43,834 nucleotides of DNA from Candidatus Thiopontia autotrophica (GTDB lineage Bacteria > Pseudomonadota > Gammaproteobacteria > GCF-002020875). Position numbers and translations under genes: made by a program. Shown here piece by piece: positions 18,171 through 36,553 of the stretch (within the stretch, counting starts at the first letter, position 1; every line of letters starts with the position of its first letter). The notes under the pieces were generated by a model. The model saw only the letters and a list, made by a program, of their open reading frames with translations, had not been told where the DNA came from and ran no database searches. The DNA lies in contig JACNFK010000029.1 of NCBI GenBank assembly GCA_014384675.1, forward strand, positions 1 to 43,834, in the 5' to 3' direction.

Positions 18171-18204
18171 GCGCATAAAAAAGACATTTTTTGCGCATAA
18201 GTTG

Positions 18205-18234
18205 ATTCTAGTGGTAAATCACCCACAAAATCAA
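18205..18234 (-). promoter_or_regulatory. lpxC promoter, distal
   Basis: TTGATT (18234-18229) and TAGAAT (18210-18205) are separated by 18 bases on the minus strand, upstream of the proximal lpxC promoter. Two direct copies of GCGCATAA lie between the two promoters (about 18171-18178 and 18193-18200). A 6-bp AT-rich stem at 18228-18242 is too weak to call a terminator for ftsA. Confidence 0.45.
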
Positions 18235-18252
18235 GCTGATTTCAACGAACCC

Positions 18253-19478
18253 CTACAAATTTCTTGAGAACCAGCGTCTCATACGCTTCCAAAGATTGGC
18301 GGCTCCACCATTCAGCACCCCTCCATCCTGGGAGCGGTAGCGTGCGCTATGAATCAACAGCCCCACACCAGTTGCATGAACAGGTGTGCGTACAACATCT
18401 ATCAGGCCATCAATATTCTGTGGTGAGCCGAGACGCACAGGCTTATGGAATATCTCCTCTGCCAGCTCAACTGCCCCCTCCATTTTGGAACTTCCCCCAG
18501 TCAAGACAACACCGGCATTTACCATCTCCTCAAAACCACTGCGGCGCAGTTCTGCCTGAACCAGGCTAAAGAGCTCCTCATAGCGAGGACCAACCACCTC
18601 TGCAAGCCCCTGTCGTTTCAGGCGTCGCTCTGGTCGATCTCCAATACTGGGGACTGCAATCTCCTCTTGTGGATCAACCATCTCGGAGAGGGCACATGCA
18701 TACTTGACCTTGATCTCTTCGGCATGATGGGTTGGGGTACGGAGGAAGACCGCAATATCATTGGTTACCTGGTCTCCGGCAACAGGAATAACGGCAGTAT
18801 GACGAATTGAGCCATCGGTAAAGACTGCAATATCGGTGGTTCCTCCACCAATATCAATCATGCAGACACCAAGCTCTTTCTCATCATCACTCAATACAGC
18901 ATAACTGGATGCCAACTGCTCCAGCACAATATCTTCTGCCTCCAGACCGCAGAGTCGAATACATTTCACAATATTTTGGGCCGCACTAATTGACCCCGTT
19001 ACAATGTGGACCTTTGCCTCGAGACGAACACCAGACATGCCAAGGGGCTCATGAATACCCTCCTGATTATCAATAATGAACTCTTGAGGAAGGGTATGGA
19101 GAATCTTTTGATCAGCTGGAATTGCAATGGCCTTGGCAGCATCAACCACCCGGTCGACATCAATTGCGGTCACCTCACGAGTACGAATTGCAACAATACC
19201 GTGCGAGTTCATCCCCTGAATGTGGCTTCCCGCAATACCGGCAGAGACTGACCCAATCTCACACTCGGCCATAATCTCGGCCTCTTCAACGGCACGCTGA
19301 ATGGATTTGACAGTGGACTCAATATTGACCACCACACCCTTCTTCAACCCCTTTGAAGGATGGGTACCAATACCCAGAATCTCGAGATCACCACCCGGCT
19401 TCAATGCACCCACAATGGCGGCTATTTTTGTGGTACCAATATCAAGCCCTACAATCAATTCATGATCTTTCTTACCCA

Positions 19479-19479
<1 letters not shown>
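18253..19479 (-). CDS. ftsA: Cell division protein FtsA
   Basis: Actin-like ATPase that tethers FtsZ filaments to the inner membrane. The 408 residues begin MGKKDHELIVGLDIGTTK (phosphate-1 motif). CMIDIGGGTTDIAVFTDG is the phosphate-2 motif near residue 205, and GVVLTGGSSKMEG the adenosine motif near 335. The C-terminal amphipathic helix LWKRMRRWFSRN is the membrane target. The ATG at 19479 overlaps the ftsQ stop (TGATG); a GTG 3 bases earlier is an alternative. Unusually, ftsZ does not follow: the next gene is lpxC, and FtsZ is encoded 16 kb upstream at the head of the same cluster. Confidence 0.96.
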
Positions 19480-22239
<2,760 letters not shown>

Positions 22240-23631
22240 CCGTCCCGGCCCCGGAAATCAGTAACAGATCTCCCTCCTCTACTACTGTTGGCAGTATCTT
22301 TATCAGCTCATCAACATCCCTGACAAACAGTGGATCCACCTCTCCACGAAGACGAACCGTGCGCGCCAGACTTCTTCCATCAGCACCCGGAATTGGCTCT
22401 TCACCTGCAGGGTAGACCTCCATCAACAACAGAATGTCTGCCGTGGACAGCACATCAACAAAGTCATCGTAAAGGTCTCTGGTTCTGGAGTAGCGGTGCG
22501 GTTGAAATGCCAGGACCACTCTGCGTCCAGGCCAACTATCACGTATCGCCTTCAGGGTTGCCGCAAGCTCTCTGGGATGATGTCCATAATCGTCAACCAG
22601 CTGAACCTCTCCCCGAGGGAACTGACAGAACCCATAATTCTGGAAACGTCGTGCAATACCCTGAAACCTTGCCAGAGCGTTGACCACAACATCATCATCC
22701 ACCCCAAGATAGGATGCCACTGCAATAGCCGCCAGTGCATTCAATACATTATGGTGACCAGGAAGGTTCAAGGTAATGGGGATTGGTGCACGTTGCGGGC
22801 GACGGAGTTGAAATCGACTCACCCCATTTGAGATTTCAAGTTGCTCCGCCCCAAAATCCACCCCACTGGAAAAACCGTAACTCAGGAATGGGCGGGAGAT
22901 GTTATCCATAATTCTGGAGACTCCAGGATCATCCACACAAAGCACTGCTTTCCCATAAAATGGCAGATGGTGAATAAACTCTTCAAAAGTTTGATCAAGC
23001 TTGTCAATATCACCACCATAGGTAGACATATGGTCTTCATCAATATTGGTAACTACAGCAATCATCGGCTGCAGATGGAGAAATGAGGCATCACTCTCAT
23101 CAGCTTCCGCAACCAGATAACGACCACTACCAAGTTGTGCTCCCCCATCATCAATATCTTCTGCCTGTTCACCACGATTAATGCGGCCACCGATTACGTA
23201 TGTTGGATCCAGCCCCGCCTCCTCAAGCAACATGGCAATCAGGCTAGTGGTAGTGGTTTTACCGTGGGTACCGGCAACAGCAATTCCATAACGAAAACGC
23301 ATCAATTCAGCCAACATCTCGGCACGGGGGATTACTGGAATAGAGTGATCTCGTGCAGCAACCACCTCGGGATTATCTGCACCAATTGCACTGGAGATCA
23401 CTACCACATCTGCTCCTGCAATCTGTTTGCCGTCATGACCAATATTGATGTCCGCTCCCTGCTTTATGAGGCTGCTAATGATTTTGGACTCTGTCTGGTC
23501 AGAACCTGAGACCTCAAAACCAAGGTTTAATAGCAGCCTGGCAATACCATTCATCCCCGCACCACCGATCCCCACCATATGAATCCTGTGGATTTGGTGC
23601 ATAGCCTCTGCCAGTTCTCGACTATCTGCCA

Positions 23632-24720
23632 TCAACAGAGCTCCTTACAGATTGATACCACATCTGCTGCCGCCTCTGGCCTCGACAACTCTCTAGCCTT
23701 CTCTCCCATCTCCGATATCATCCCTGGATGCTGAATAAACTCCCTGATCATACCTAATAACCTCTCTCCATCCAGATCTCTCTGCTGGACGAGCAGTGCT
23801 GCATCATCACTCTGCAAAAAATTTCCATTTGCTGTCTGGTGATCATCCACAGCAAATGGAAAGGGGACAAGAATAGCTGGGCGTCCCACCATTGCCAGCT
23901 CAGAAACTGTCATTGCCCCTGCTCGACACAGCACCAGATCAGACCATTGATATGCCTCTTGCATATTCTCAATATAGGCGACAACACGACTATTTTCTCC
24001 GCTGTCAAATACAACTCCATGCTTTATGTATTCCAACTCTGTATCTTTCAGATTACTCTCACCAGTCTGATGGTAGATCTCCAGCCTCTCCTCAGGCAAC
24101 AACATTGATATCATCTCTGGAATCAGCTGATTAATTCGTTGCGCACCCAAACTGCCGCCCAGCACCAGTAGACGAAGGGGATTATGTGAAGAGGCTATCT
24201 CCATATCCATCAATCTGCTACGTAGTGGATTACCTGTCTGCACCACTTTTTTGCCGGGTCCAAATGTTCCAGGAAATGCCTCCAATACCCTTCTGGAAAC
24301 AGTAGATAACAGTCTGTTGGTTAACCCCGCAACTGCATTCTGCTCATGAATAACCAGCGGCCTTCGCATAATCCATGCAGCAACTCCGCCTGGACCAGCG
24401 ACAAACCCGCCCATCCCCAATACAACATCAGGCTTTATCCTCCAGATAGCACCTATTGATTGTGCTATCGCCCGACTCAGATGAAATGGAGCGAGCAATA
24501 GGCTTATTATCCCTTTTCCACGCAGTCCATGAATAGAGATCCACTCCACCCCTATCCCTGCCTCTGGAACCAGTCTGGATTCCATTCCAGTCCTTGTCCC
24601 CAACCAGATAACCTCATCCCCACCGCGCCTCCACAGTTCCGCAACAGCAAGGGCTGGATATATATGTCCTCCAGTGCCACCAGCCATAATCATCAAACAT
24701 TTTTTCTTGTGCGCTGTCAT
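23632..24720 (-). CDS. murG: UDP-GlcNAc transferase MurG (lipid II synthase)
   Basis: Peripheral inner-membrane glycosyltransferase (GT28) that adds GlcNAc to lipid I to form lipid [22 protein letters not shown] near residue 10 is the lipid-I binding glycine loop, [17 protein letters not shown] a second such loop, and [16 protein letters not shown] near 124 is a family signature. [25 protein letters not shown] near 262 forms the UDP-GlcNAc site. The 362 residues are normal. It overlaps ftsW by 4 bases (ATGA), implying coupled translation. Confidence 0.96.
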
Positions 24721-25961
24721 AAATGATCTCGCCTCGCTCCCCTGTTATTTCTTGCCTTTCTATGCACCAGCGGGCAAATCTCATACTCCACCCGCATCAA
24801 CAGGGCGATAGCAATCATCATCACCAACAGGCTACTGCCGCCATAACTCATTAGTGGCAGAGTTAACCCCTTGGTTGGCAACAGATTCATATTAACACCA
24901 AGATTAATCAGAGCCTGCAGCCCAATCCAGGTTCCAATACCGTAGGCAAGATAACTTGCATATGGTTGCCGGCACTCACTAGCCTGAGAAGCCAGCCAGA
25001 ATGACTTCCAGACCAGAAAAGCGAACAGGGCAACCACTGAAAGCGTTCCGATTAAACCCAGCTCCTCCGCTATAACCGCCAAAATAAAATCCGTGTGCGC
25101 TTCGGGAAGATAGAAGAGTTTTTGTAGCCCCTCACCCAGACCAAGCCCCTGCCATCCTCCACGGCCATAAGCAATCAAGGCCTGGGTTATCTGATAGTTG
25201 CGTCCCTGGGGATCAACCAGAAATGGGTCATCTCCAAGAAATGAGGCTATTCTGGAGACACGGAAAGGCTCCATCCATATAGCTACAGAAAGAAACAGTA
25301 GGCCACACAAGATAAAGAGCATAAATTGTGAAAAGCGCACCCCTCCAAGCAACATCATGACCATAACCACAACCATCATTACAAATGCCGCACCTAGATC
25401 AGGCTCAATCAAGATCAATACGCCCACCCCGGCCAACAGTGCAATTGGACGCAGAACTGCGAACAACTCATTTGAGACTTTTTCTCGATGACGCACTAGG
25501 TAGCCTGCAAGATAGAGAAATGCAGCCAATTTGGTAAATTCCGAGGGCTGAAGACGAATTGGACCAAGTACTAGCCAGCGATGTGCCCCATTTACCTTAT
25601 CCCCAACAAACAGAACCAATATCAACAAGAGAGCACTGATTAAGAGTAGCGTTGGAGCAATCTTCTCCCAAAATTGCAGGGGGATCTGCAGAACCACCAT
25701 GCCAACCATCAACCCGATAGAGGCAAAACCAAACTGTCTCAGCAGATAGTGTAACGGCTCACCAAATCGTTTTTCTGCAATAGGCATGGATGCAGATGCC
25801 ACCATAACCAATCCAAACAGCAGGATAAAAAGAGCTACAGGAAAAAGTCCGGACTCCGCAACAGTACGGCCTATACTACGTGCTCCAGCTGGTCTGGGTT
25901 TTCTGGATCTGTCACTACCTCCCCAGGTAAACCACCCTTGAAACAGGCTATGCTTGCTCAT
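24717..25961 (-). CDS. ftsW: Septal peptidoglycan polymerase FtsW
   Basis: SEDS-family membrane glycosyltransferase that polymerises lipid II at the septum together with FtsI. About ten transmembrane helices are predicted by eye over 414 residues. Family signatures are visible: LGPIRLQPSEFTKLAAFLYLAGYL near residue 132, GEGLQKLFYLPEAHTDFILAV with the AEELG acidic motif near 280, and LPTKGLTLPLMSYGGSSLL near 360. It overlaps murD by 4 bases and murG by 4, in standard dcw order. Confidence 0.96.
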   Translation of the reverse strand: MSKHSLFQGWFTWGGSDRSRKPRPAGARSIGRTVAESGLFPVALFILLFGLVMVASASMPIAEKRFGEPLHYLLRQFGFASIGLMVGMVVLQIPLQFWEKIAPTLLLISALLLILVLFVGDKVNGAHRWLVLGPIRLQPSEFTKLAAFLYLAGYLVRHREKVSNELFAVLRPIALLAGVGVLILIEPDLGAAFVMMVVVMVMMLLGGVRFSQFMLFILCGLLFLSVAIWMEPFRVSRIASFLGDDPFLVDPQGRNYQITQALIAYGRGGWQGLGLGEGLQKLFYLPEAHTDFILAVIAEELGLIGTLSVVALFAFLVWKSFWLASQASECRQPYASYLAYGIGTWIGLQALINLGVNMNLLPTKGLTLPLMSYGGSSLLVMMIAIALLMRVEYEICPLVHRKARNNRGARRDHL

Positions 25962-27361
25962 AACGCACCCTCTATAAGATCAAACAGGTCATCTCTAAAT
26001 ATCGTCCCACGCTCCTCAAACCCGCTGTACTGATCAAAGCTGGCGCATGCAGGAGACAACAAGACCATATCACCATGTTGTGCCACCATGTCTGCTGCGC
26101 CCACTGCTGCACTCATATCCTCTACAAATATCTCAGGGACAACACCATTAAATGATTTTGAGATTATATCGGCATCCTCCCCCATCAAGATTACTGTCCG
26201 TACATGCCTCTTGAGCAGTGGTTGCAGAGAACAGAAATCACCATCCTTGCCCTGACCCCCGACAATCAGAACAATCTTTCCGCTATCACCAGCTGTCTCT
26301 GTTAACAACCCCTTGATGGCCGCCTCTGTTGCCCCTACATTGGTCCCTTTTGAATCATTGATCCAGACAACTCCATTATGGTCGGCAACCCACTCCGTGC
26401 GATGGGGCAGGCCACGAAACTCTTGCAACGCCTCAACCATTGAAGCCATACCCATTCCAGCAGATTCACCAAGAGCCAATGCTGCCATTGCATTCAGATA
26501 GTTGTGCTCCCCCATGATATGTAACTTATCTGTAGAGAGCAGAAAGTCGCCACCTCTACAGATCCATGTTTTTCCATCTTTCGTCATGATACCGTAAGAA
26601 TCTGCCCCATCTGGTGGGCCTGCATGGTAGGAGTGCAGTTTTGATGATCCATTTTGCTGGTTTACCAATTCGCATACTATCTCGTCATCTGAATCATAAA
26701 TCAGATGTGATGCATGACTGTATATACCTCCTTTGGTCTCTGCATAACTCTGTAGATCAGGGTATCGATCCATATGGTCAGGGGTAACATTCAGTACAAC
26801 AGAGGCAACAGGCATCAGAGTTTTCATGGTCTCAAGCTGGAAGCTGGAGAGCTCCAGAATATACAGATCAGGCTCATCCTCACCCAAAAGATCAAGTGCA
26901 GGTATCCCGAGATTACCGCCATAACGGACATCAAGAGCCGCTTTCTGTGCCATCCTGGCAACCAGAGTTGTAACTGTACTTTTTCCATTCGATCCGGTGA
27001 TGGCAATAACCGGCGCTTTTGCGTAACGGGCAAACAATTCGATATCACCAATTAGCTCAACCCCGCTATTAACCGCCTGCTGAATAGCTGGAGAGTCTTT
27101 GGATACTCCCGGACTCAATACAATACACCTCACCGATGACAGCAGCTCTCCATCCAGTGGTCCCAATACAATATCCAGATCAGGATAGCGATCCTCTATT
27201 TCTGCCAGTTCAGGCGGAGAGTTACGTGTATCAGTCGCCACTAACGGCACCTCATATCTGGAGAGGAACTGCAGAACAGATTGTCCGCTCTTCCCCAGGC
27301 CGACAACCATGGTCTTGTCCTTGATCTCAGGATCTCTCAACTTGTTGTCAGACACCACCAC
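25958..27361 (-). CDS. murD: UDP-N-acetylmuramoyl-L-alanine--D-glutamate ligase
   Basis: Adds D-glutamate to UDP-MurNAc-L-Ala. MVVGLGKSGQSVLQFL near residue 18 binds the UDP-sugar, [18 protein letters not shown] near 120 is the P-loop, LELSSFQLE near 168 and NDSKGTNVGATEAAI near 335 are metal/nucleotide motifs. The start is probably one of three consecutive GTG codons (27361, 27358, 27355) just after the mraY TAG, with AGGT about 9 bases before the first; I list 27361. No ATG lies near the expected N-terminus. Length about 467 residues, slightly above the E. coli 438. Confidence 0.93.
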   Translation of the reverse strand: MVVSDNKLRDPEIKDKTMVVGLGKSGQSVLQFLSRYEVPLVATDTRNSPPELAEIEDRYPDLDIVLGPLDGELLSSVRCIVLSPGVSKDSPAIQQAVNSGVELIGDIELFARYAKAPVIAITGSNGKSTVTTLVARMAQKAALDVRYGGNLGIPALDLLGEDEPDLYILELSSFQLETMKTLMPVASVVLNVTPDHMDRYPDLQSYAETKGGIYSHASHLIYDSDDEIVCELVNQQNGSSKLHSYHAGPPDGADSYGIMTKDGKTWICRGGDFLLSTDKLHIMGEHNYLNAMAALALGESAGMGMASMVEALQEFRGLPHRTEWVADHNGVVWINDSKGTNVGATEAAIKGLLTETAGDSGKIVLIVGGQGKDGDFCSLQPLLKRHVRTVILMGEDADIISKSFNGVVPEIFVEDMSAAVGAADMVAQHGDMVLLSPACASFDQYSGFEERGTIFRDDLFDLIEGAL

Positions 27362-27366
27362 GTCTG

Positions 27367-28449
27367 CTACCTGATTTTGAGTGTTGCCAACCCAATCAAC
27401 ACGAGAATAAAGGTGATAATCCAGAACCGTACAATTACCCTTGGCTCGGGCCATCCCTTGAGTTCAAAGTGATGATGTATCGGTGCCATCCTGAACACCC
27501 GCCTGCCGGTCAACTTGAAGGAGGCCACCTGAATCATTACTGAAACTGTCTCCAGCACAAACACCCCTCCCATAATAAGCAGAACCAACTCCTGGCGCAC
27601 CAGTATTGCCACCATCCCCAATGCTGCCCCAAGTGCAAGAGCACCTACATCACCCATAAATACCATTGCCGGATAGGTATTGAACCAGAGAAACCCCAGA
27701 CCTGCCCCAACCAGAGCACCGCAGAATACAGCCAGCTCTCCAGCCTCTGGCAGTGATGGAATTGCAAGATATCTGGCAAACTCCACATGCCCACTCAGGT
27801 ATGCAAAAACACCCAGTGCCCCGCCCACCAGTACTGCAGGCATAATAGCCAGCCCATCCAGCCCATCAGTCAGATTAACTGCATTACTGGATCCCACAAT
27901 CACCAGAAATGCCAATGGCAGATAGAGCAGCCCAAGATCAATAACTATATCCTTGAAGAAGGGGACAAACAGCTGGGTCTCGGTTACTGTTGATGCAGAC
28001 ATATAGACCCAGACTACAGCAACGGTTGCAATGAATGATTGCCCAAGAAATTTGGATCGTGCAGAGATTCCATTTGGATCCTGGTAGACAACCTTACGAT
28101 AATCATCCACCCAACCTATTGCACCAAAACCGAGCGTTACCAACAATACTGCCCATAGATAACGGTTGGAGAGATCCCCCCACAACAGAGTAGATACTGT
28201 AACTGCAACCAGAATGAGTGCACCGCCCATGGTTGGGGTTCCCGCCTTTGCCAGATGAGATTGGGGGCCATCCTCTCGAACAGCCTGACCCACCTTGTAG
28301 TGGGTCAACTTCCGAATCATTATCGGACCAACCATAAAAGATAGTACAAGGGCAGTTAGTGCTCCCAGAATTGCTCGTAGAGTCAGATACTGAAACACGG
28401 AGAATCCCCCATAAAAATCTGCCAGATAATCTCCTATATAGAGCATCAT
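27367..28449 (-). CDS. mraY: Phospho-MurNAc-pentapeptide transferase
   Basis: Polytopic inner-membrane enzyme that transfers phospho-MurNAc-pentapeptide to undecaprenyl phosphate, forming lipid I. Motifs: KAGTPTMGG near residue 69, WVDDYRKV near 112 (catalytic DD pair), [13 protein letters not shown] near 190 and the histidine loop [15 protein letters not shown] near 322. Length 360 residues with ten or so membrane helices, identical in size to the E. coli protein. The ATG at 28449 overlaps the murF TGA (ATGA). Confidence 0.97.
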
Positions 28450-29798
28450 GACTGGTCATCTGCCTCCTTAACCGTAATCTTCCTTACAATCTGTTCCATT
28501 TTCATAAACCGGGACCCTTTCACCAAAATAACCCTTCCCATGGCCAACTCATCTGCCAGGGCAACCACCAACTTCTCACTATCCTCAAATAGAGCTGCGC
28601 CATCTCCAAATCCTGAGACATACTCAGAGGCACTACTACCAAGCGCATACATACTGTCAATACCGGCTGATTTGGCCATAACACCAATCTGTTTATGGAG
28701 ATGTGGAGAATCCTCGCCCAATTCACCCATGTCACCAACCACAAGGATTCTTCGACCTTCCATAGATGAGAGCACCTCTACTGCCCGCATCATAGATTCC
28801 GGACTCGCATTATAGGTATCATCAATAACTACAGCCCCTCCTCTCCCCGGTTTACTCTCCAGCCTACCTGGTATGGCCTGCATGGACTCCAAACCATTTT
28901 TTACCTGTCCAAGTGAGGCGCCAGCCTGGACAGCAAGGGCTGCAGCAGCAAGCGCATTCATTTTGTTGTGTTCCCCTGGAAGGGGTAATTCTACCTTCAA
29001 TGACTCTCCTTTATAAGATATCTCAAAAGGTTCTCGGCTCTTGATCACAGCAGAGATCAGAGATGGCTCACAGCAAGATCCATAGGTTTGAACCTCTCGT
29101 CCTGTAGCCATAGCCACCCAGTCATCTGCTTGCGGCAGGTCACAATTGATGAGTGCAACACCATCACTACGTAGCCCGGCATAAATCTCACCTTTGGCTC
29201 TGGCTATATTTCTGATTGAACCAAACCCACCAAGGTGGGCAGAACCAACATTATTTACCAGAGCTATCGTCGGCTGTGCAATTGCAGATAATCTCGCAAT
29301 TTCTCCCAGAGCACTTGCCCCCATCTCAATAACTGCCCACCTGTCACCTGAAGAGAGATTGAACAGCGTCAGTGGAACTCCAATATCATTGTTCAGGTTT
29401 CCCTTGGTAACTGTTCCAGGACCAAGCTGGGCCAGTATCAACGCAACCATCTCTTTTACTGTAGTCTTGCCATTGCTGCCAGTAATAGCCATGAGAGGAA
29501 TATCAAATTGATCTCTCCAGGCAGATGCAACCATACCTAATGCAGATAGAGTATCGGTAACCACAATCTGCGGCAGACTGCTCTTATATAGCTGATCTGT
29601 AATTGCACCTACCGCACCTTTCTTGAGTGCAGTATCAAGATATTCACCACCACTAAAATTGGGGCCACGAAGCGCCACAAACAACTCTCCACTCTTAAGA
29701 GTTCTGGTATCACTGCTTACCCCCCGAAAACCGCTATCTCCACCAATAAGTGGGGCATTCAATAGATCTGCAATATGGGAGAGTTTTTTCAACATCAC
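28446..29798 (-). CDS. murF: UDP-MurNAc-tripeptide--D-Ala-D-Ala ligase
   Basis: Adds the D-Ala-D-Ala dipeptide made by DdlB, completing the pentapeptide precursor. [21 protein letters not shown] near residues 28-48 binds the UDP-sugar, [18 protein letters not shown] near 105 is the P-loop, [12 protein letters not shown] near 156 and [11 protein letters not shown] near 327 are family motifs. Length 450 residues. The start is either the GTG at 29798, directly abutting the murE TAG, or the ATG 3 bases later; both lack a clear ribosome-binding site, so it depends on coupling to murE. Confidence 0.95.
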
Positions 29799-31313
29799 CT
29801 ACATCCCGGAGAGGTTAGACCTCATCAATGAGGCTGCCAACAGTCGGTCACTAAACGGGATCTTTCTCTCTCCAACCAACTGCCACTCCTCATGCCCCTT
29901 TCCTGCAATCAATACAATGTCATTTTGGTTACTCTCGCTGAAGCAGTGGCGGATTGCCTCCTCCCTGTCATGAATCACTGCCGCCCTCTCTGCCTGCTGC
30001 ATCCCGGCAAGAATCTGTCTGGTGATATCTACAGCTGACTCACCTCTTGGGTTGTCATCGGTTAGTACCACCACATCTGCATACTGTTCCGCAATCCTTC
30101 CCATTTCTGGACGTTTCCCACTGTCACGATCACCTCCACAACCAAACAGAACCCAGAGCCTTCCAACACCTGATACATCTTGCAGGTGCTCTCTGGTTGC
30201 AGTTAGTGCCGCCGCAAGTGCACCAGGAGTATGGGCATAATCGATTATCATGGTGGCGTACCCATCTCCCACAAATGGCTCCATACGACCAGAAACTGGC
30301 TCGGTTTTTTCCAATATCTCCACAGCCTCAGAAAATGGCACTTTCCAGCTAATCAACAGGGCCAATGTAGCCAGAAGATTACTCGCATTGAATCTGCCAT
30401 AGAGGTTGCTACCAAGCATCTTCTTTTCACCATGATACTCAATCTCCAGCACCATTCCATTGCGATCCTGGATAATGACCTCACCATAAACATCAGGTTT
30501 TATATTGCCACTTTCAGAGCCATAACCGATACATTCTGCTGTTCTGGTTGGGTCAAGATAGATCTCACGGCCCAGCTCATCATCCAGATTAACCACAACC
30601 GAAGATAGTCCGGGATAATAGAACAGACTCTTCTTAATCTTACGGTAGGCAGCGACAGAACCATGATAGTCCAGATGGTCTCGCCCCACCTGCGTCAGTA
30701 CGGCACTGGTAATCTCACTGCCTGAGAGTCTGAACTGCTCTATTCCATGTGACGAGGCCTCAATTGCCACACTTTTTACTCCAGACTCAACAAAGCCTGA
30801 GAAGAGCCTCTGCAGCTCAATTGGAGGAGGAGTTGTGTGGCCGGTGGCAATCGTGTCACGACCTCTCTCCATCAACCTTCCACCAAGCGTTCCAATAACA
30901 GCTGCGCCCCCCTCAAATCGCTCCATTGCTGCTGCAATAAAGTGGGTAACTGAGCTTTTCCCATCTGTTCCTGTTACAGCAACAACCTTTAACTTATGAG
31001 AGGGATTCCCATAAAACCTGCTGGCAATCTGCCCCAATACTTGCCTCAGATTTGCCACCTGAATTCCAACATGGTGAGTTATTGTTCCACTATCAAACAG
31101 TATGGCAACAGCCCCTCTCTCCACAGCCTGATCAATATAATCAACCCCATCCAGACCTGAGCCGGCAAGCGCAATAAAGAGATCACCATGACAGAGTGTT
31201 CTGCTATCCACAGAGAGCCCCATTACTGTAATCTCACTGAGATCCTGAGGTACAACTGTAATACCATCCAGAATCTCCCCCAAGCTCCACTCCATATCTC
31301 TCTTATTCATCAT
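29799..31313 (-). CDS. murE: UDP-MurNAc-L-Ala-D-Glu--meso-diaminopimelate ligase
   Basis: Adds the third stem-peptide residue. The specificity motif DDNPR (LTDDNPRGESAVDI near residue 420) indicates meso-diaminopimelate, as expected for a Gram-negative wall. Other signatures: SVDSRTLCHGDLFIAL near 34, VTGTDGKSSVTHFIAAAM near 113, and TTPPPIELQRLF near 164. Length 504 residues. The ATG at 31313 overlaps the ftsI TGA (TGATG), with a second ATG immediately following. Normal dcw position. Confidence 0.96.
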   Translation of the reverse strand: MMNKRDMEWSLGEILDGITVVPQDLSEITVMGLSVDSRTLCHGDLFIALAGSGLDGVDYIDQAVERGAVAILFDSGTITHHVGIQVANLRQVLGQIASRFYGNPSHKLKVVAVTGTDGKSSVTHFIAAAMERFEGGAAVIGTLGGRLMERGRDTIATGHTTPPPIELQRLFSGFVESGVKSVAIEASSHGIEQFRLSGSEITSAVLTQVGRDHLDYHGSVAAYRKIKKSLFYYPGLSSVVVNLDDELGREIYLDPTRTAECIGYGSESGNIKPDVYGEVIIQDRNGMVLEIEYHGEKKMLGSNLYGRFNASNLLATLALLISWKVPFSEAVEILEKTEPVSGRMEPFVGDGYATMIIDYAHTPGALAAALTATREHLQDVSGVGRLWVLFGCGGDRDSGKRPEMGRIAEQYADVVVLTDDNPRGESAVDITRQILAGMQQAERAAVIHDREEAIRHCFSESNQNDIVLIAGKGHEEWQLVGERKIPFSDRLLAASLMRSNLSGM

Positions 31314-33037
31314 CAGGATATCTCATCCCTGTTTTCCGGGTCTGGAGAAATACCCATCACCCGTAGCGCTCCCTCCATAACCTCGGAAAATACCGGGGCT
31401 GAAACCCAGCCTCCGGTATATCTTTTACCTTTTGGATCATCAACAACTACAACCACAACAATTTTTGGGTCGTCAACCGGTGCCATTCCAGCAAACAGGG
31501 CAGTGTGCCCAAGAGCCTTGCCATCACTATCGTAATATCTCCCATCAACAAGCTTATCAACCGTGCCGGTCTTGCCTGCAACCCTATACTCTTTTACCCT
31601 GGCTCGCCGTGCTGTCCCCTCGTTTTGGGTCACGCTCTCCATCATCAGACGGACAGCTTGCGCTGTCTCTGCAGATAGAACCTTGCGTACACTTCCTCTA
31701 TCTTCCTCATCTCGTTGGCGCAAAAAGGTAACAGGCTTAATCACTCCATCCTCGGCAATTGCAGAGTATGCCCGTGCCAACTGTAGCGGGGTCATATTTA
31801 GTCCGTACCCGTAAGAGAGGGTTGCTCTATCAACCTTCCTCCATCTTGCATAGTCGTGCAAAACTCCTGTCCCCTCTCCAGGGAAGCCCGATCCAGTTAG
31901 CTCTCCAATCCCGGCAAGATCAAGGACTCTCCATAACTGCTGCGGCTTCATCATTAAGGCAAGCTTGGCTGATCCTACATTACTGGACTTTTGCACCAGG
32001 GTCTTTAAATCAATTTTTTTGTAATTATGGTTTTTAAATTCCCGAATAACCTTCCTCCCAATTTTCAATCTACCAGGGGATGTATCAATAATTGTCTCAA
32101 GGTTAACTACCCCACTATCAAGGGCAGCTGCTACAGTAAACGGCTTCATGGTTGAGCCTGGCTCCAACAGATCGGTAACTGCCCGATTTCGCAGTGCGCC
32201 GCCCTTTCTCTGTGATGGGTCATTTGGATTAAAAGATGGGAGGCTCACCATTGCCAATACCTCACCACGGTCTGAATCCAATACAACCACTGAACCTGAT
32301 GATGCATCATATTCAGTTATTGCCTTACTCAGGGATCTGTATGCAAGAAACTGCAGGCGACGATCCAGACTCAGGTGAAGCCGTTTCCCCTCCTCTCCAT
32401 GCTCAATCAGGCCAAGTGTCTCAATTGGCTTTCTGGATGCATCCCGAACCACCTGGACTATATCTGGAGAACCATTAAGCCATTCATTATAGGCCAACTC
32501 TATCCCCTCCTGCCCCTCGTCCTGCCGGTTGGTAAAACCGAGAAAGGACGCCATTGCCTCACCCTCTGGATAATAACGTCTTACGCCCCGACGAAACTCA
32601 ATGCCTGCAATATTTAGTGACTCAATTTTTTTCTTTATGTGTGGTGCAACCTGTCTTTTCAGCGGGATATATTTTTTCGCTGAGTAGCGTGCCAGTTTTT
32701 TATTGAGCCAACCCTCGCTCTCACCCAACAATTTTGCCAGTCTGATTCGTATCTCACGGGAGTCTGGAAATTTTTGCGGATTACAGCCAACAGTCACGAC
32801 CGGGGTACTCAACGCAAGCACTGAGCCATTTCGATCTACAATCTCACCACGTATTGCCGGAATCTCCATCTTGCTTATATGCTGGGCAACCCGGCCGGGC
32901 AATCTTGTGCTTACCTCTTCTGGAAACAGATGCAACATGACTGCTCGCCACACCAGAATAGCCATTGCAACCAGCAGAGGAATCCCAACAGCTATCCGTC
33001 GAACCATGGTATCGCCAGTTACTGAACCTCTCTTCAC
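31313..33037 (-). CDS. ftsI: Septal peptidoglycan transpeptidase FtsI (PBP3)
   Basis: Class B penicillin-binding protein that cross-links septal peptidoglycan, partner of FtsW. It has an N-terminal transmembrane helix near residues 16-31, a pedestal domain with the EIPAIRGEIVDRNG motif near 58, and a transpeptidase domain. The catalytic SxxK is STMK at 295-298, SxN is SSN at 351-353 and KTG is at 489-491. Length 574 residues. The GTG start at 33037 overlaps the ftsL TGA (GTGA); an ATG at 33007 is a possible alternative. Confidence 0.95.
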   Translation of the reverse strand: MKRGSVTGDTMVRRIAVGIPLLVAMAILVWRAVMLHLFPEEVSTRLPGRVAQHISKMEIPAIRGEIVDRNGSVLALSTPVVTVGCNPQKFPDSREIRIRLAKLLGESEGWLNKKLARYSAKKYIPLKRQVAPHIKKKIESLNIAGIEFRRGVRRYYPEGEAMASFLGFTNRQDEGQEGIELAYNEWLNGSPDIVQVVRDASRKPIETLGLIEHGEEGKRLHLSLDRRLQFLAYRSLSKAITEYDASSGSVVVLDSDRGEVLAMVSLPSFNPNDPSQRKGGALRNRAVTDLLEPGSTMKPFTVAAALDSGVVNLETIIDTSPGRLKIGRKVIREFKNHNYKKIDLKTLVQKSSNVGSAKLALMMKPQQLWRVLDLAGIGELTGSGFPGEGTGVLHDYARWRKVDRATLSYGYGLNMTPLQLARAYSAIAEDGVIKPVTFLRQRDEEDRGSVRKVLSAETAQAVRLMMESVTQNEGTARRARVKEYRVAGKTGTVDKLVDGRYYDSDGKALGHTALFAGMAPVDDPKIVVVVVVDDPKGKRYTGGWVSAPVFSEVMEGALRVMGISPDPENRDEIS

Positions 33038-33327
33038 TGGTGAATTACCACTCTTTGACTACCGTCAGGATAGGACATGCTCAACTCAGACTGTGCACGA
33101 TCCTCAATTTTCGCAAGATTTCCCCATGCCGCCTCCTCTAAACGGAGCCGACCCTGCTCTTCAAGAGCACGCCCATACTGTTTTTTTAGCCCCTGCAGAT
33201 GGATATAGAGCTGGATCTCCCGATGTTGAAGATAGATAACCCCCATTGCACTCCCAATCACTAGCAAAATAAGCAGTGGCAACAGACCGCCACGAATAAT
33301 GAAGTTTGCCTCATACCAGCGTGTCAC
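33034..33327 (-). CDS. ftsL: Cell division protein FtsL
   Basis: Small bitopic divisome protein, 97 residues. A short cytoplasmic tail precedes a membrane helix at about residues 12-30 (GGLLPLLILLVIGSAMGVIYL). A periplasmic coiled coil follows (HREIQLYIHLQGLKKQYGRA and LEEQGRLRLEEAAW), which pairs with FtsB. Sequence identity in this family is low, so the call rests on size, topology and place between rsmH and ftsI. The start GTG at 33327 overlaps the rsmH TAG by one base. Confidence 0.9.
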   Translation of the reverse strand: MTRWYEANFIIRGGLLPLLILLVIGSAMGVIYLQHREIQLYIHLQGLKKQYGRALEEQGRLRLEEAAWGNLAKIEDRAQSELSMSYPDGSQRVVIHQ

Positions 33328-34295
33328 TACTCTCCCCTCTCACCAGGAAGCTCAAGCTTCTCGGCAACCCTCAATACTGCACTTCTGGAACGTGGGTTAA
33401 TCGATATTTCGTCTGCAGAGGGAAATTGCGCCTTGCCGATCACTCGCATTACTCCGCTATGCTCTATGGAACGAATTGGCAGATCTGGTGGCAGATTGCT
33501 CTCCCCTTTTTCACATTTTCTAAAAAACCGTTTTACCATTCTATCCTCGAGCGAATGGAAACTGATAACAGCAACTCGCCCCCCCGTATTAAGAAGTTCA
33601 ACGGCCTGATCGAGAACCTCTCCGAGCTCATCAAGTTCTCTATTTAGATAGATACGGATAGCCTGAAATGTTTTTGTTGCAGGATGACGTTTCTGCTTCC
33701 CTGGAATGGATCTCCTGACAATTTCTGCAAGCTGCAGTGTAGTATTAATTGGATCCTCGTCACGAGCCCTGACAATGGCCCTGGCAACTCTTCTGGAGTG
33801 ACGCTCATCCCCAAATTCCCACAATACATTTGCAATCTCATCTTGAGAGGCATCCTTGATCCACTCTGCGGCACTTGTCCCCTGCTGTGGGTTCATTCGC
33901 ATATCAAGAGGACCCTGCTTCATAAAACTGAATCCTCGCTCCGCCTGATCAAGTTGCGGAGAGGAGACCCCAAGATCCAATAATAGACCATCAATTGCCA
34001 TATCTTCATGTAGCAATACCATTTTCAGATCGGAGAATGGGGCATGGACAATCGAAACCCTGGAATCTTCGGAGAACCTCTCCTCTGCAGCCTGGACAGC
34101 TACCGGGTCACGATCCATAAGCAGAAGTCTGCCATGTGAAGAGAGTCGTTTCAAAATCTCGGCTGCATGCCCCCCTCTTCCAAAGGTTGCATCCACATAA
34201 AACCCGTCTGGCTTTATATTGAGGCCGGCAACTGCCTCCTCCAACATGACTGAATAGTGGGCAACATGATGGTGCCCTTGATCAGATATAGACAT
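33327..34295 (-). CDS. rsmH: 16S rRNA (cytosine1402-N4)-methyltransferase
   Basis: SAM-dependent methylation of the ribosomal P site at C1402 (N4); the partner enzyme for the same nucleotide, RsmI (2'-O), is encoded 2.3 kb upstream on the same strand. HYSVMLEEAVAGL near residue 12, VDATFGRGGHAAEIL near 34 (SAM loop), DLGVSSPQLDQAERGFSFM near 107 and VISFHSLEDRMVKRFF near 258 are family motifs. Length 322 residues. It overlaps the end of mraZ by 14 bases. Confidence 0.96.
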   Translation of the reverse strand: MSISDQGHHHVAHYSVMLEEAVAGLNIKPDGFYVDATFGRGGHAAEILKRLSSHGRLLLMDRDPVAVQAAEERFSEDSRVSIVHAPFSDLKMVLLHEDMAIDGLLLDLGVSSPQLDQAERGFSFMKQGPLDMRMNPQQGTSAAEWIKDASQDEIANVLWEFGDERHSRRVARAIVRARDEDPINTTLQLAEIVRRSIPGKQKRHPATKTFQAIRIYLNRELDELGEVLDQAVELLNTGGRVAVISFHSLEDRMVKRFFRKCEKGESNLPPDLPIRSIEHSGVMRVIGKAQFPSADEISINPRSRSAVLRVAEKLELPGERGE

Positions 34296-34725
34296 CCTCG
34301 AGCAGACTCAGATCTTCCTTGCTGAGCCCCTCCTCTTCCAATGAGGCCTCAATCCAGTCTACCTCATTCCAGAGCTCCAGCTTATATCCAACCCCTGCCA
34401 AAACCGCTGATTTCTCCAGCCCTGCATAATCACGCAACTTCTGAGAAAGCAAAATACGTCCGCTCCCATCCATCTCACACTCCTGTGCCCTGCCAATAAC
34501 TGCACGACGCAACAGGATCTGCTTTTTGCTATCCAGGGTATCTATATAGTTCTCAACCTTCTCTTCCCACTCATAGAGTGGAAACAGATCAAGAGATGAA
34601 GAGCGGAAGCTGGGTGCTACAATGACAGTGCCGCCAGATGCCTCAAGCAATCTGGTCCGATAGTGGGAAGGGATCGAGATTCTCCCCTTGCTGTCGAGAC
34701 TTACTGTCTTGTTCCCCCTAAACAT
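34282..34725 (-). CDS. mraZ: Transcriptional regulator MraZ
   Basis: Ring-forming DNA-binding protein of the AbrB/SpoVT superfamily that represses the dcw operon. Both half-domains show the DxxGRI loop: SLDSKGRISIPSHYR at about residues 9-23 and MDGSGRILLSQKLR near 80. Length 147 residues. In nearly all gammaproteobacteria mraZ is the first gene of the cluster; here ftsZ precedes it by 29 bases, and the MraZ-type operator lies before ftsZ. The ATG has no recognisable Shine-Dalgarno sequence, so it may rely on read-through from ftsZ. Confidence 0.94.
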   Translation of the reverse strand: MFRGNKTVSLDSKGRISIPSHYRTRLLEASGGTVIVAPSFRSSSLDLFPLYEWEEKVENYIDTLDSKKQILLRRAVIGRAQECEMDGSGRILLSQKLRDYAGLEKSAVLAGVGYKLELWNEVDWIEASLEEEGLSKEDLSLLEDVYI

Positions 34726-34754
34726 AATCTATAGACCAAAAATATGCCTTGAAA

Positions 34755-35903
34755 TCAGTTCGCCTGAGCTCTCAAGAAGGCAGGTATGTCAAACAGCTCT
34801 TCATTAAACTCACCATCTGTCGACTCACCCTGCTCATCACGGATATAGGTTGGCTGATCATATTCACCGCCTGTACCTGTCGGCTTTGCTGCCTCAACCA
34901 ACGTAGGTTTGATTACCTGAGGTGCCACCTGCTTCTCCACAGCAGCCCCACCCAGGCCGGTAGCCACTACAGTGACACGAATCTCATCACTCATATCGGC
35001 ATCAAAACCAGCACCTACCACAATAGTTGCATCCTCTGATGCATATTGTCTAACCGCTGTACCTACCTCATTGAACTGACCCATAGTCAGATCATATCCA
35101 GAGGTTACATTCACCAGAATACCTCTTGCACCACGCAGATCCACATCCTCAAGCAGAGGACTATGCAGGGCAGCGTCTGCAGCCTTGGAAGCGCGATCTT
35201 CTCCTGTAGCAGATCCTGTTCCCATCATTGCCATACCCATCTCTGACATTACTGTTTTGACATCGGCAAAGTCGACATTAATCATTCCCTCACGGGTAAT
35301 AAGCTCTGCAATACCCTGGACTGCGCCGCGCAAAACACTATCTGCCTCACGGAATGCATCCATTAGCGTCATGTCTTCGCCAAAAACTGTCATCAATTTT
35401 TCATTTGGAATTGTAATAATGGAGTCAACATGCTTGCTCAACTCCTCAATACCCTCGAGAGCAACCTTCATTCTGTTGTTGCCCTCCATAGAGAATGGCT
35501 TGGTAACCACAGCAACTGTAAGAACTCCCATCTCCTTGGCAACCTCAGCTACAACTGGTGCTGCACCTGTACCAGTACCGCCGCCCATACCAGCAGTAAT
35601 AAAGAGCATCTCTGTGCCGTCAATAAGTTCACGAATACGTTCACGATCCTCAAGTGCTGAATCACGTCCGACCGTCGGTTTGGCACCTGCGCCTCTACCT
35701 CTGGTCGTCTGTGACCCAATCTGAATTACCGTATCTGCAGAAGATTTTCCCAATGCCTGTGCATCAGTATTTGCGCAGATGAACTCTACCCCCGCAATCT
35801 CTGACTCCACCATATGTTCCAAGGCATTACCACCTGCTCCCCCGACACCAATTACGCGAATGATTGCGTTATCTGTATATGCATCGACTACCTCTTCAAA
35901 CAT
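34755..35903 (-). CDS. ftsZ: Cell division GTPase FtsZ (relocated)
   Basis: Tubulin-like GTPase that forms the Z-ring. The GTP signature GGGTGTG is at residues 107-113, the N-terminal nucleotide loop RVIGVGGAGGNALEHM near 16, and the T7 catalytic loop INVDFADVK at 208-216. The conserved C-terminal peptide ELFDIPAFLRAQAN, which binds FtsA, ZipA and ZapD, is intact. Length 382 residues. AAAGGGG lies about 8 bases before the ATG. Its position is abnormal: it is upstream of mraZ instead of between ftsA and lpxC. The sequence looks fully functional, with no sign of decay. Whether another copy exists elsewhere cannot be seen here. Confidence 0.97.
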   Translation of the reverse strand: MFEEVVDAYTDNAIIRVIGVGGAGGNALEHMVESEIAGVEFICANTDAQALGKSSADTVIQIGSQTTRGRGAGAKPTVGRDSALEDRERIRELIDGTEMLFITAGMGGGTGTGAAPVVAEVAKEMGVLTVAVVTKPFSMEGNNRMKVALEGIEELSKHVDSIITIPNEKLMTVFGEDMTLMDAFREADSVLRGAVQGIAELITREGMINVDFADVKTVMSEMGMAMMGTGSATGEDRASKAADAALHSPLLEDVDLRGARGILVNVTSGYDLTMGQFNEVGTAVRQYASEDATIVVGAGFDADMSDEIRVTVVATGLGGAAVEKQVAPQVIKPTLVEAAKPTGTGGEYDQPTYIRDEQGESTDGEFNEELFDIPAFLRAQAN

Positions 35904-35928
35904 TGTGCTACCCCTTTAATATTACACT

Positions 35929-35991
35929 CACCAGAAATTAACCACTTTGCCCCACAAGTCACCACTATACGCCACTTTTATCCAATATCAA
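35929..35991 (-). promoter_or_regulatory. ftsZ/dcw promoter with MraZ-type operator
   Basis: On the minus strand TTGATA (35991-35986) and TATAGT (35969-35964) are 16 bases apart. Four GTGGN pentamers lie at an exact 10-bp period: GTGGC (35975-35971), GTGGT (35965-35961), GTGGG (35955-35951) and GTGGT (35945-35941). A further TGGTG lies at 35933-35929, slightly out of register. MraZ of E. coli binds GTGGG-type repeats with 5-nt spacers at the dcw promoter, so this is very probably the MraZ operator, overlapping the -10 box and the start region. The ftsZ ATG is about 60 bases downstream. Confidence 0.82.
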
Positions 35992-36013
35992 CCAAAAAAT
36001 AGAAAAAGTTGCT

Positions 36014-36182: not shown

Positions 36183-36553
36183 AGGTGGAAGTCGGCCGAT
36201 AAGCCGGGTTCTGTCGAGGACAACCATTCATCTGGGATGCATGTCGCCACGCACCTCAAGCAACCTACCCGAGAGCAGAGCGAGCAGCTCCTGTAGCTCT
36301 CCTATTTGGTCTTGCTCCAAGCGGGGTTTACCTTGCCACAAACAGTTACCTGTTGTGCGGTGCGCTCTTACCGCACCATTTCACCCTTACCGGTACGGAA
36401 TCCGTACTTAGGCGGTATATTTTCTGCGGCACTATCCATAGGCTTATATCTCTCAAGACTTTCACCTCCCAGGCGTTACCTGGCGCTCCGCTCTATGGAG
36501 CCCGGACTTTCCTCTGTATCAATGATTGATACAGCGATTGTCTGGCCGACTTC
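36183..36553 (-). ncRNA. rnpB: RNase P RNA, bacterial class A
   Basis: Catalytic RNA of RNase P, which trims tRNA 5' leaders. On the minus strand the 5' end reads GAAGTCGGCCAGACAATCGC, followed by AGGAAAGTCCGGGCTCC (conserved CR-I). The core GGTAAGGGTGAAATGGTGCG and TAAGAGCGCACC follow, then GAGCAAGACCAAATAGG, AGATGAATGGTTGTCC and the 3' closing CGACAGAACCCGGCTTATCG. Length about 371 nt, close to E. coli. The P3 helix is a short plain hairpin (CTGTATCAA-TCA-TTGATACAG). It sits between rsmI and the dcw cluster, the common location. Ends are accurate to a few bases. Confidence 0.96.

Follow-up and report, generated by a model that had tools for sequence, protein, structure and literature searches.

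The locus raised the question of whether a run of GTGG repeats in front of ftsZ is the operator of the regulator MraZ, and of how ftsZ came to lie between such an operator and mraZ. Few gene orders in bacteria are as stable as that of the dcw genes, and MraZ is among the most conserved of regulators. The reason for the retention of MraZ is unclear because, to our knowledge, its loss in E. coli has no clear phenotype. The window, i.e. the whole stretch of 43,834 nucleotides that was analysed, corresponds to contig C29 of the gammaproteobacterial genome G000 (1.58 Mb). The order on its minus strand was rsmI, rnpB, 280 bp of non-coding DNA, ftsZ, 29 bp, mraZ, and then mraW to ftsA and lpxC:

36184..36553, minus strand: rnpB (RNase P RNA; Rfam RF00010), ancestral neighbour upstream of the dcw promoter
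34755..35903, minus strand: ftsZ, 382 aa, gene 1 of the dcw operon (Pfam PF00091, PF12327; TIGR00065)
34726..34754, minus strand: ftsZ-mraZ gap, 29 bp, free of boxes
34282..34725, minus strand: mraZ, 147 aa (PF02381; TIGR00242 above cut-off; aligned with E. coli)
18253..34295, minus strand: remainder of the dcw operon, mraW-ftsL-ftsI-murE-murF-mraY-murD-ftsW-murG-murC-murB-ddl-ftsQ-ftsA, all gaps 2 bp or less
18199..18252, minus strand: ancestral ftsZ site, closed, with ftsA then lpxC directly (G005 alike)

The canonical dcw cluster has mraZ first and ftsA-ftsZ(-lpxC) last; here ftsZ was first, and none was present between ftsA and lpxC. The encoded protein is a bona fide, full-length FtsZ with the GTPase domain, the FtsZ_C domain and the usual DIPAFLR C-terminal peptide. 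A second canonical ftsZ in the genome was considered and rejected, the other match being a divergent paralogue without FtsZ_C. A 323-aa protein on contig C28 (L021:8320-9291, plus strand), with an N-terminal hydrophobic segment, matched PF00091 at 5.5e-19 and had no FtsZ_C; it is possibly a membrane-anchored FtsZ paralogue. A weak match of the same type was seen on G004 C186.

The product of mraZ has the marks of the MraZ family, for which solved structures exist, namely two AbrB-like halves with DxxxR motifs (PF02381/TIGR00242). In the alignment with E. coli MraZ both motifs were kept (D11-R15 and D86-R90). The 29-nt gap before mraZ (34726-34754) had no obvious ribosome-binding sequence, unlike that of the relative G005, and translation of mraZ in the window genome may depend on ftsZ.

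The following elements were located upstream of ftsZ:

35976..35994, minus strand: two weaker in-phase TGG (TTTGG, ATTGG), reaching over the -35 and the spacer
35964..35991, minus strand: sigma-70-like promoter TTGATA-16-TATAGT, score 10/12
35941..35975, minus strand: MraZ-type operator of four GTGGN boxes, 10-bp period, shared with four sister species and with the regions before mraZ in outgroup families
35904..35963, minus strand: -10 to ftsZ ATG, 60 nt, including boxes 3 and 4; ribosome-binding stretch AGGGG

A preliminary description of this DNA had reported NCCAC starts at 35941, 35951, 35961 and 35971 of the plus strand, and these were recovered exactly as four minus-strand GTGGN boxes of 10-bp period (GTGG starts at 35975, 35965, 35955 and 35945; GTGGC-gtata-GTGGT-gactt-GTGGG-gcaaa-GTGGT). 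The four boxes stood as described, while the two weak in-phase boxes and the reach of the array into the -35/-10 spacer had been missed. Counting TGG alone, six copies were in phase from 35994, with ATTGG and TTTGG upstream of the four GTGG. The overlap with the promoter was also borne out, the promoter-like site running from 35991 to 35964. Box 2 begins with the two bases that close the -10, the -35/-10 spacer holds box 1, and boxes 3 and 4 fall around and past the expected start. An MraZ operator has at least three GTGG-type boxes at 10-bp period, overlapping or abutting the dcw promoter, and both features were present. Its usual, not strictly defining, place is directly before mraZ; here ftsZ was found between, with mraZ next in the operon.

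GTGG in four copies at period 10 occurred once in the window against a chance expectation of about 7e-5, and no other 4-mer in the window recurred four times at a constant period anywhere between 5 and 15. The array was moreover conserved in five species, and a chance origin, whose probability we regard as negligible, was ruled out by the shuffles and by this conservation. The ftsZ-mraZ gap had been described as free of such repeats, and no in-phase TGG run longer than one was found in the 150 nt before mraZ. A genome-wide scan for four in-phase TGG gave a sole other match (CTGG/ATGG, contig C13), which was background-like. The array in front of ftsZ is thus without a plausible MraZ-type counterpart in the 1.58-Mb genome; another MraZ target was considered and rejected, the matches being background-like only.

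Similar arrays are known from MraZ systems in other bacteria. The E. coli MG1655 Pmra carries GTGGG three times at an exact 10-bp period, between the promoter and dcw gene 1, and the 16-mer TTGTGGGGCAAAGTGG is common to E. coli and the window. E. coli differs in having mraZ first, three boxes, and ftsZ as the last gene of the cluster. That E. coli MraZ binds such arrays and represses the cluster is reported in PMC7761207 and PMC8475190. In Burkholderia cenocepacia, MraZ bound a 10-bp-period array downstream of the -10 in EMSA (PMC7761207). The bound fragment of PmraBc resembles the window in its four repeats of 10-bp period beside the -10 and over the transcription start (PMC7761207), but mraZ is first, ftsZ is far downstream, and every box is downstream of the -10. 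In Mycoplasma genitalium, MraZ is a repressor and loss of mraZ raises ftsZ (PMC8475190). M. genitalium and M. gallisepticum resemble the window in their GTG-containing repeats before a short ftsZ operon, the only site in the genome (PMC8475190); they differ in gene order (mraZ-mraW-MG_223-ftsZ, with ftsZ behind mraZ) and in motif (AAAGTG[T/G]).

A class-wide set of 140 genomes was drawn, nearly all one per family; mraZ was present in 123, and 120 loci including E. coli were scored. At least three in-phase TGG were found within 150 nt before mraZ at 95 of the 120 outgroup loci, against 0.55 expected from dinucleotide shuffles. The -10-like hexamers nearby were in one register relative to the boxes in 68 of 87 cases, most arrays overlapped a TATAGTG core as in the window, and the class-wide mraZ promoter consensus was TTGaca-17-cTATAGTGt....AaGTGGg..aaAGTGGg. 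Comparison with the mraZ upstream regions of relatives, proposed in the preliminary description, thus gave the same boxes, TATAGTG and leader length (median 58 nt in the outgroups) directly before mraZ in most of the 120. Helical phasing is compatible with many proteins, and a 10-bp periodicity might be a promoter or DNA-bending feature serving a regulator other than MraZ. We regard this as very improbable, since the same array occurs at mraZ promoters class-wide, matches the E. coli boxes almost letter for letter, and tracks the dcw promoter and not other genes.

The outgroup arrays (L131, L078, L062 and others) varied in length, with up to six in-phase TGG, and some were near-perfect (GTGGACAAAA three times). 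Array length appears to evolve quickly.

The lineage of the window is a small group of marine gammaproteobacteria. Its order is represented in the database by six genomes, all of one genus; their named counterparts are MAGs, several apparently from Saanich Inlet sets judging by isolate names. In all six, ftsZ was directly upstream of mraZ. In the genus mraZ started 16-43 nt past ftsZ, with no boxes in the gap. The region before ftsZ was readable in five, and each had four in-phase TGG around an invariant GTATAGTGG. The 16-nt spacing and TATAGT were retained in the four sister species. Of the two weak boxes TTTGG and ATTGG, both were present in G005, one in G001 and one in G002. Invariant positions across the genus numbered 26 of 60 from -20 to +39 around TATAGT, versus 2 of 40 just upstream. 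The array was kept even though MraZ identity across the genus fell to 47-67%. A leftover array before mraZ, within the 3' end of ftsZ, was looked for in five genomes and rejected.

At the outgroup loci ftsZ was adjacent to mraZ in 0 of 120. A joint pattern of TATAGTG, two boxes and an ftsZ start was found in 4/4 genus members and 0/365 other genomes, as a pattern that requires the TATAGTG register and would miss some arrays. A search of 369 genomes for an ftsZ tail followed by an mraZ start matched the genus only, with a sensitivity of about a quarter that gives it little weight; the adjacency count and the joint pattern are the stronger tests. The upstream neighbour is shared: of 18 outgroup loci examined for it, 17 had rnpB upstream of mraZ (E. 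coli being the exception; the 18 were picked mainly for having rsmI in reach). At the other end of the cluster, ftsA preceded ftsZ in all of the best 28 FtsZ loci outside the genus, and lpxC followed in 27, being undetected in one. In the two genus genomes with a readable site (G000 and G005), ftsA was followed directly by lpxC without ftsZ.

The boxes stand before mraZ in the outgroups and before ftsZ in the genus, and the old ftsZ site is empty; the operator therefore kept its place while ftsZ came in between it and mraZ, as the preliminary description had supposed. We consider it very likely that the class-wide MraZ operator and dcw promoter stayed in place, that ftsZ was inserted before mraZ, and that MraZ represses ftsZ first. 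The array would be the class-wide operator, joined with the dcw promoter (Pmra) and fixed behind rsmI-rnpB. In the ancestor of the genus, ftsZ would have left the ftsA/lpxC slot and settled between the leader of the operator and mraZ. Its start codon would have replaced that of mraZ in position, because the leaders match (-10 to ATG of 53-60 nt in the genus, against the outgroup median). One observation fits this account less well: the boxes were at -1, 0, +1 and +2 relative to the -10 in the genus, and mostly at 0 (a degenerate GTGT), +1, +2 and +3 in the outgroups. Since the register differs, part of the array would have changed after the insertion, with a displacement of one box in the direction of the -35 when compared with the outgroups.

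Today's gene order would look no different had ftsZ come to lie behind the operator through horizontal transfer or as an additional copy, with the old copy lost afterwards. On the tree, genus FtsZ branches apart from the sampled families on a long stem, as such an origin would predict. The FtsA of the same genomes, however, has a similarly long stem (1.2 versus 1.53 for FtsZ), both single-gene trees being poorly resolved. FtsZ identity to other families is also ordinary (60-65%), with the nearest matches in the same class, the only class searched. Transfer is accordingly unlikely, and the ftsZ copy is probably the lineage's own.

The evolutionary part of the favoured interpretation, a retained operator and a moved ftsZ, is supported by the comparisons above; the regulatory part is plausible. 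MraZ, as the product of gene 2 of the ftsZ transcript, would bind several boxes jointly from the -35 to about +16 and, judging by this position, shut out RNA polymerase. The result would be negative autoregulation, with ftsZ as the first and nearest target, followed by mraZ itself and the wall-synthesis genes through ftsA. MraZ would set FtsZ, itself and the operon because of the anatomy of the locus and the experiments in other bacteria, and ftsZ is probably under direct MraZ control in the genus. It might be argued that MraZ mainly autoregulates and that the FtsZ level comes from promoters elsewhere, within the region or before it, e.g. by read-through from rnpB. Repression by E. coli MraZ is given for mraZ to murC only (PMC7761207), and one weak promoter-like match lies inside ftsZ. 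On the other side, ftsZ directly follows the operator as gene 1, the one good promoter of the region lies under the array, and promoter-like matches there did not exceed those in shuffles (6 versus 4.1), so that we find this account improbable.

The arrangement, with ftsZ moved from the end of the cluster to its very front, is a lineage-restricted new variant of the known MraZ regulatory system. A literature search found no report of an ftsZ gene that precedes mraZ. The placing of ftsZ first behind the operator suggests that MraZ acts in a meaningful way through the dosage of FtsZ, and the lineage is a natural rewiring of MraZ control that is open to experiment. The rearrangement also parts ftsZ from ftsA, which lies 15 genes downstream in the window, and the ftsZ:ftsA ratio matters in division. 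Tentatively, MraZ could be a dedicated homeostat of the FtsZ level, a possibility that we take seriously and hold with some doubt. The only operator in the genome would then have been lengthened to as many as six in-phase boxes with ftsZ first, and FtsZ synthesis would be set by MraZ feedback, uncoupled from ftsA and from the promoters around ftsQA.

Three gammaproteobacterial genomes (1.1-1.9 Mb) had ftsZ only 1-3 kb downstream of mraZ (G129 C1:396044-399068, G054 C1:1534166-1536640 and G040 C2:69668-74122), which suggests shortened dcw clusters.
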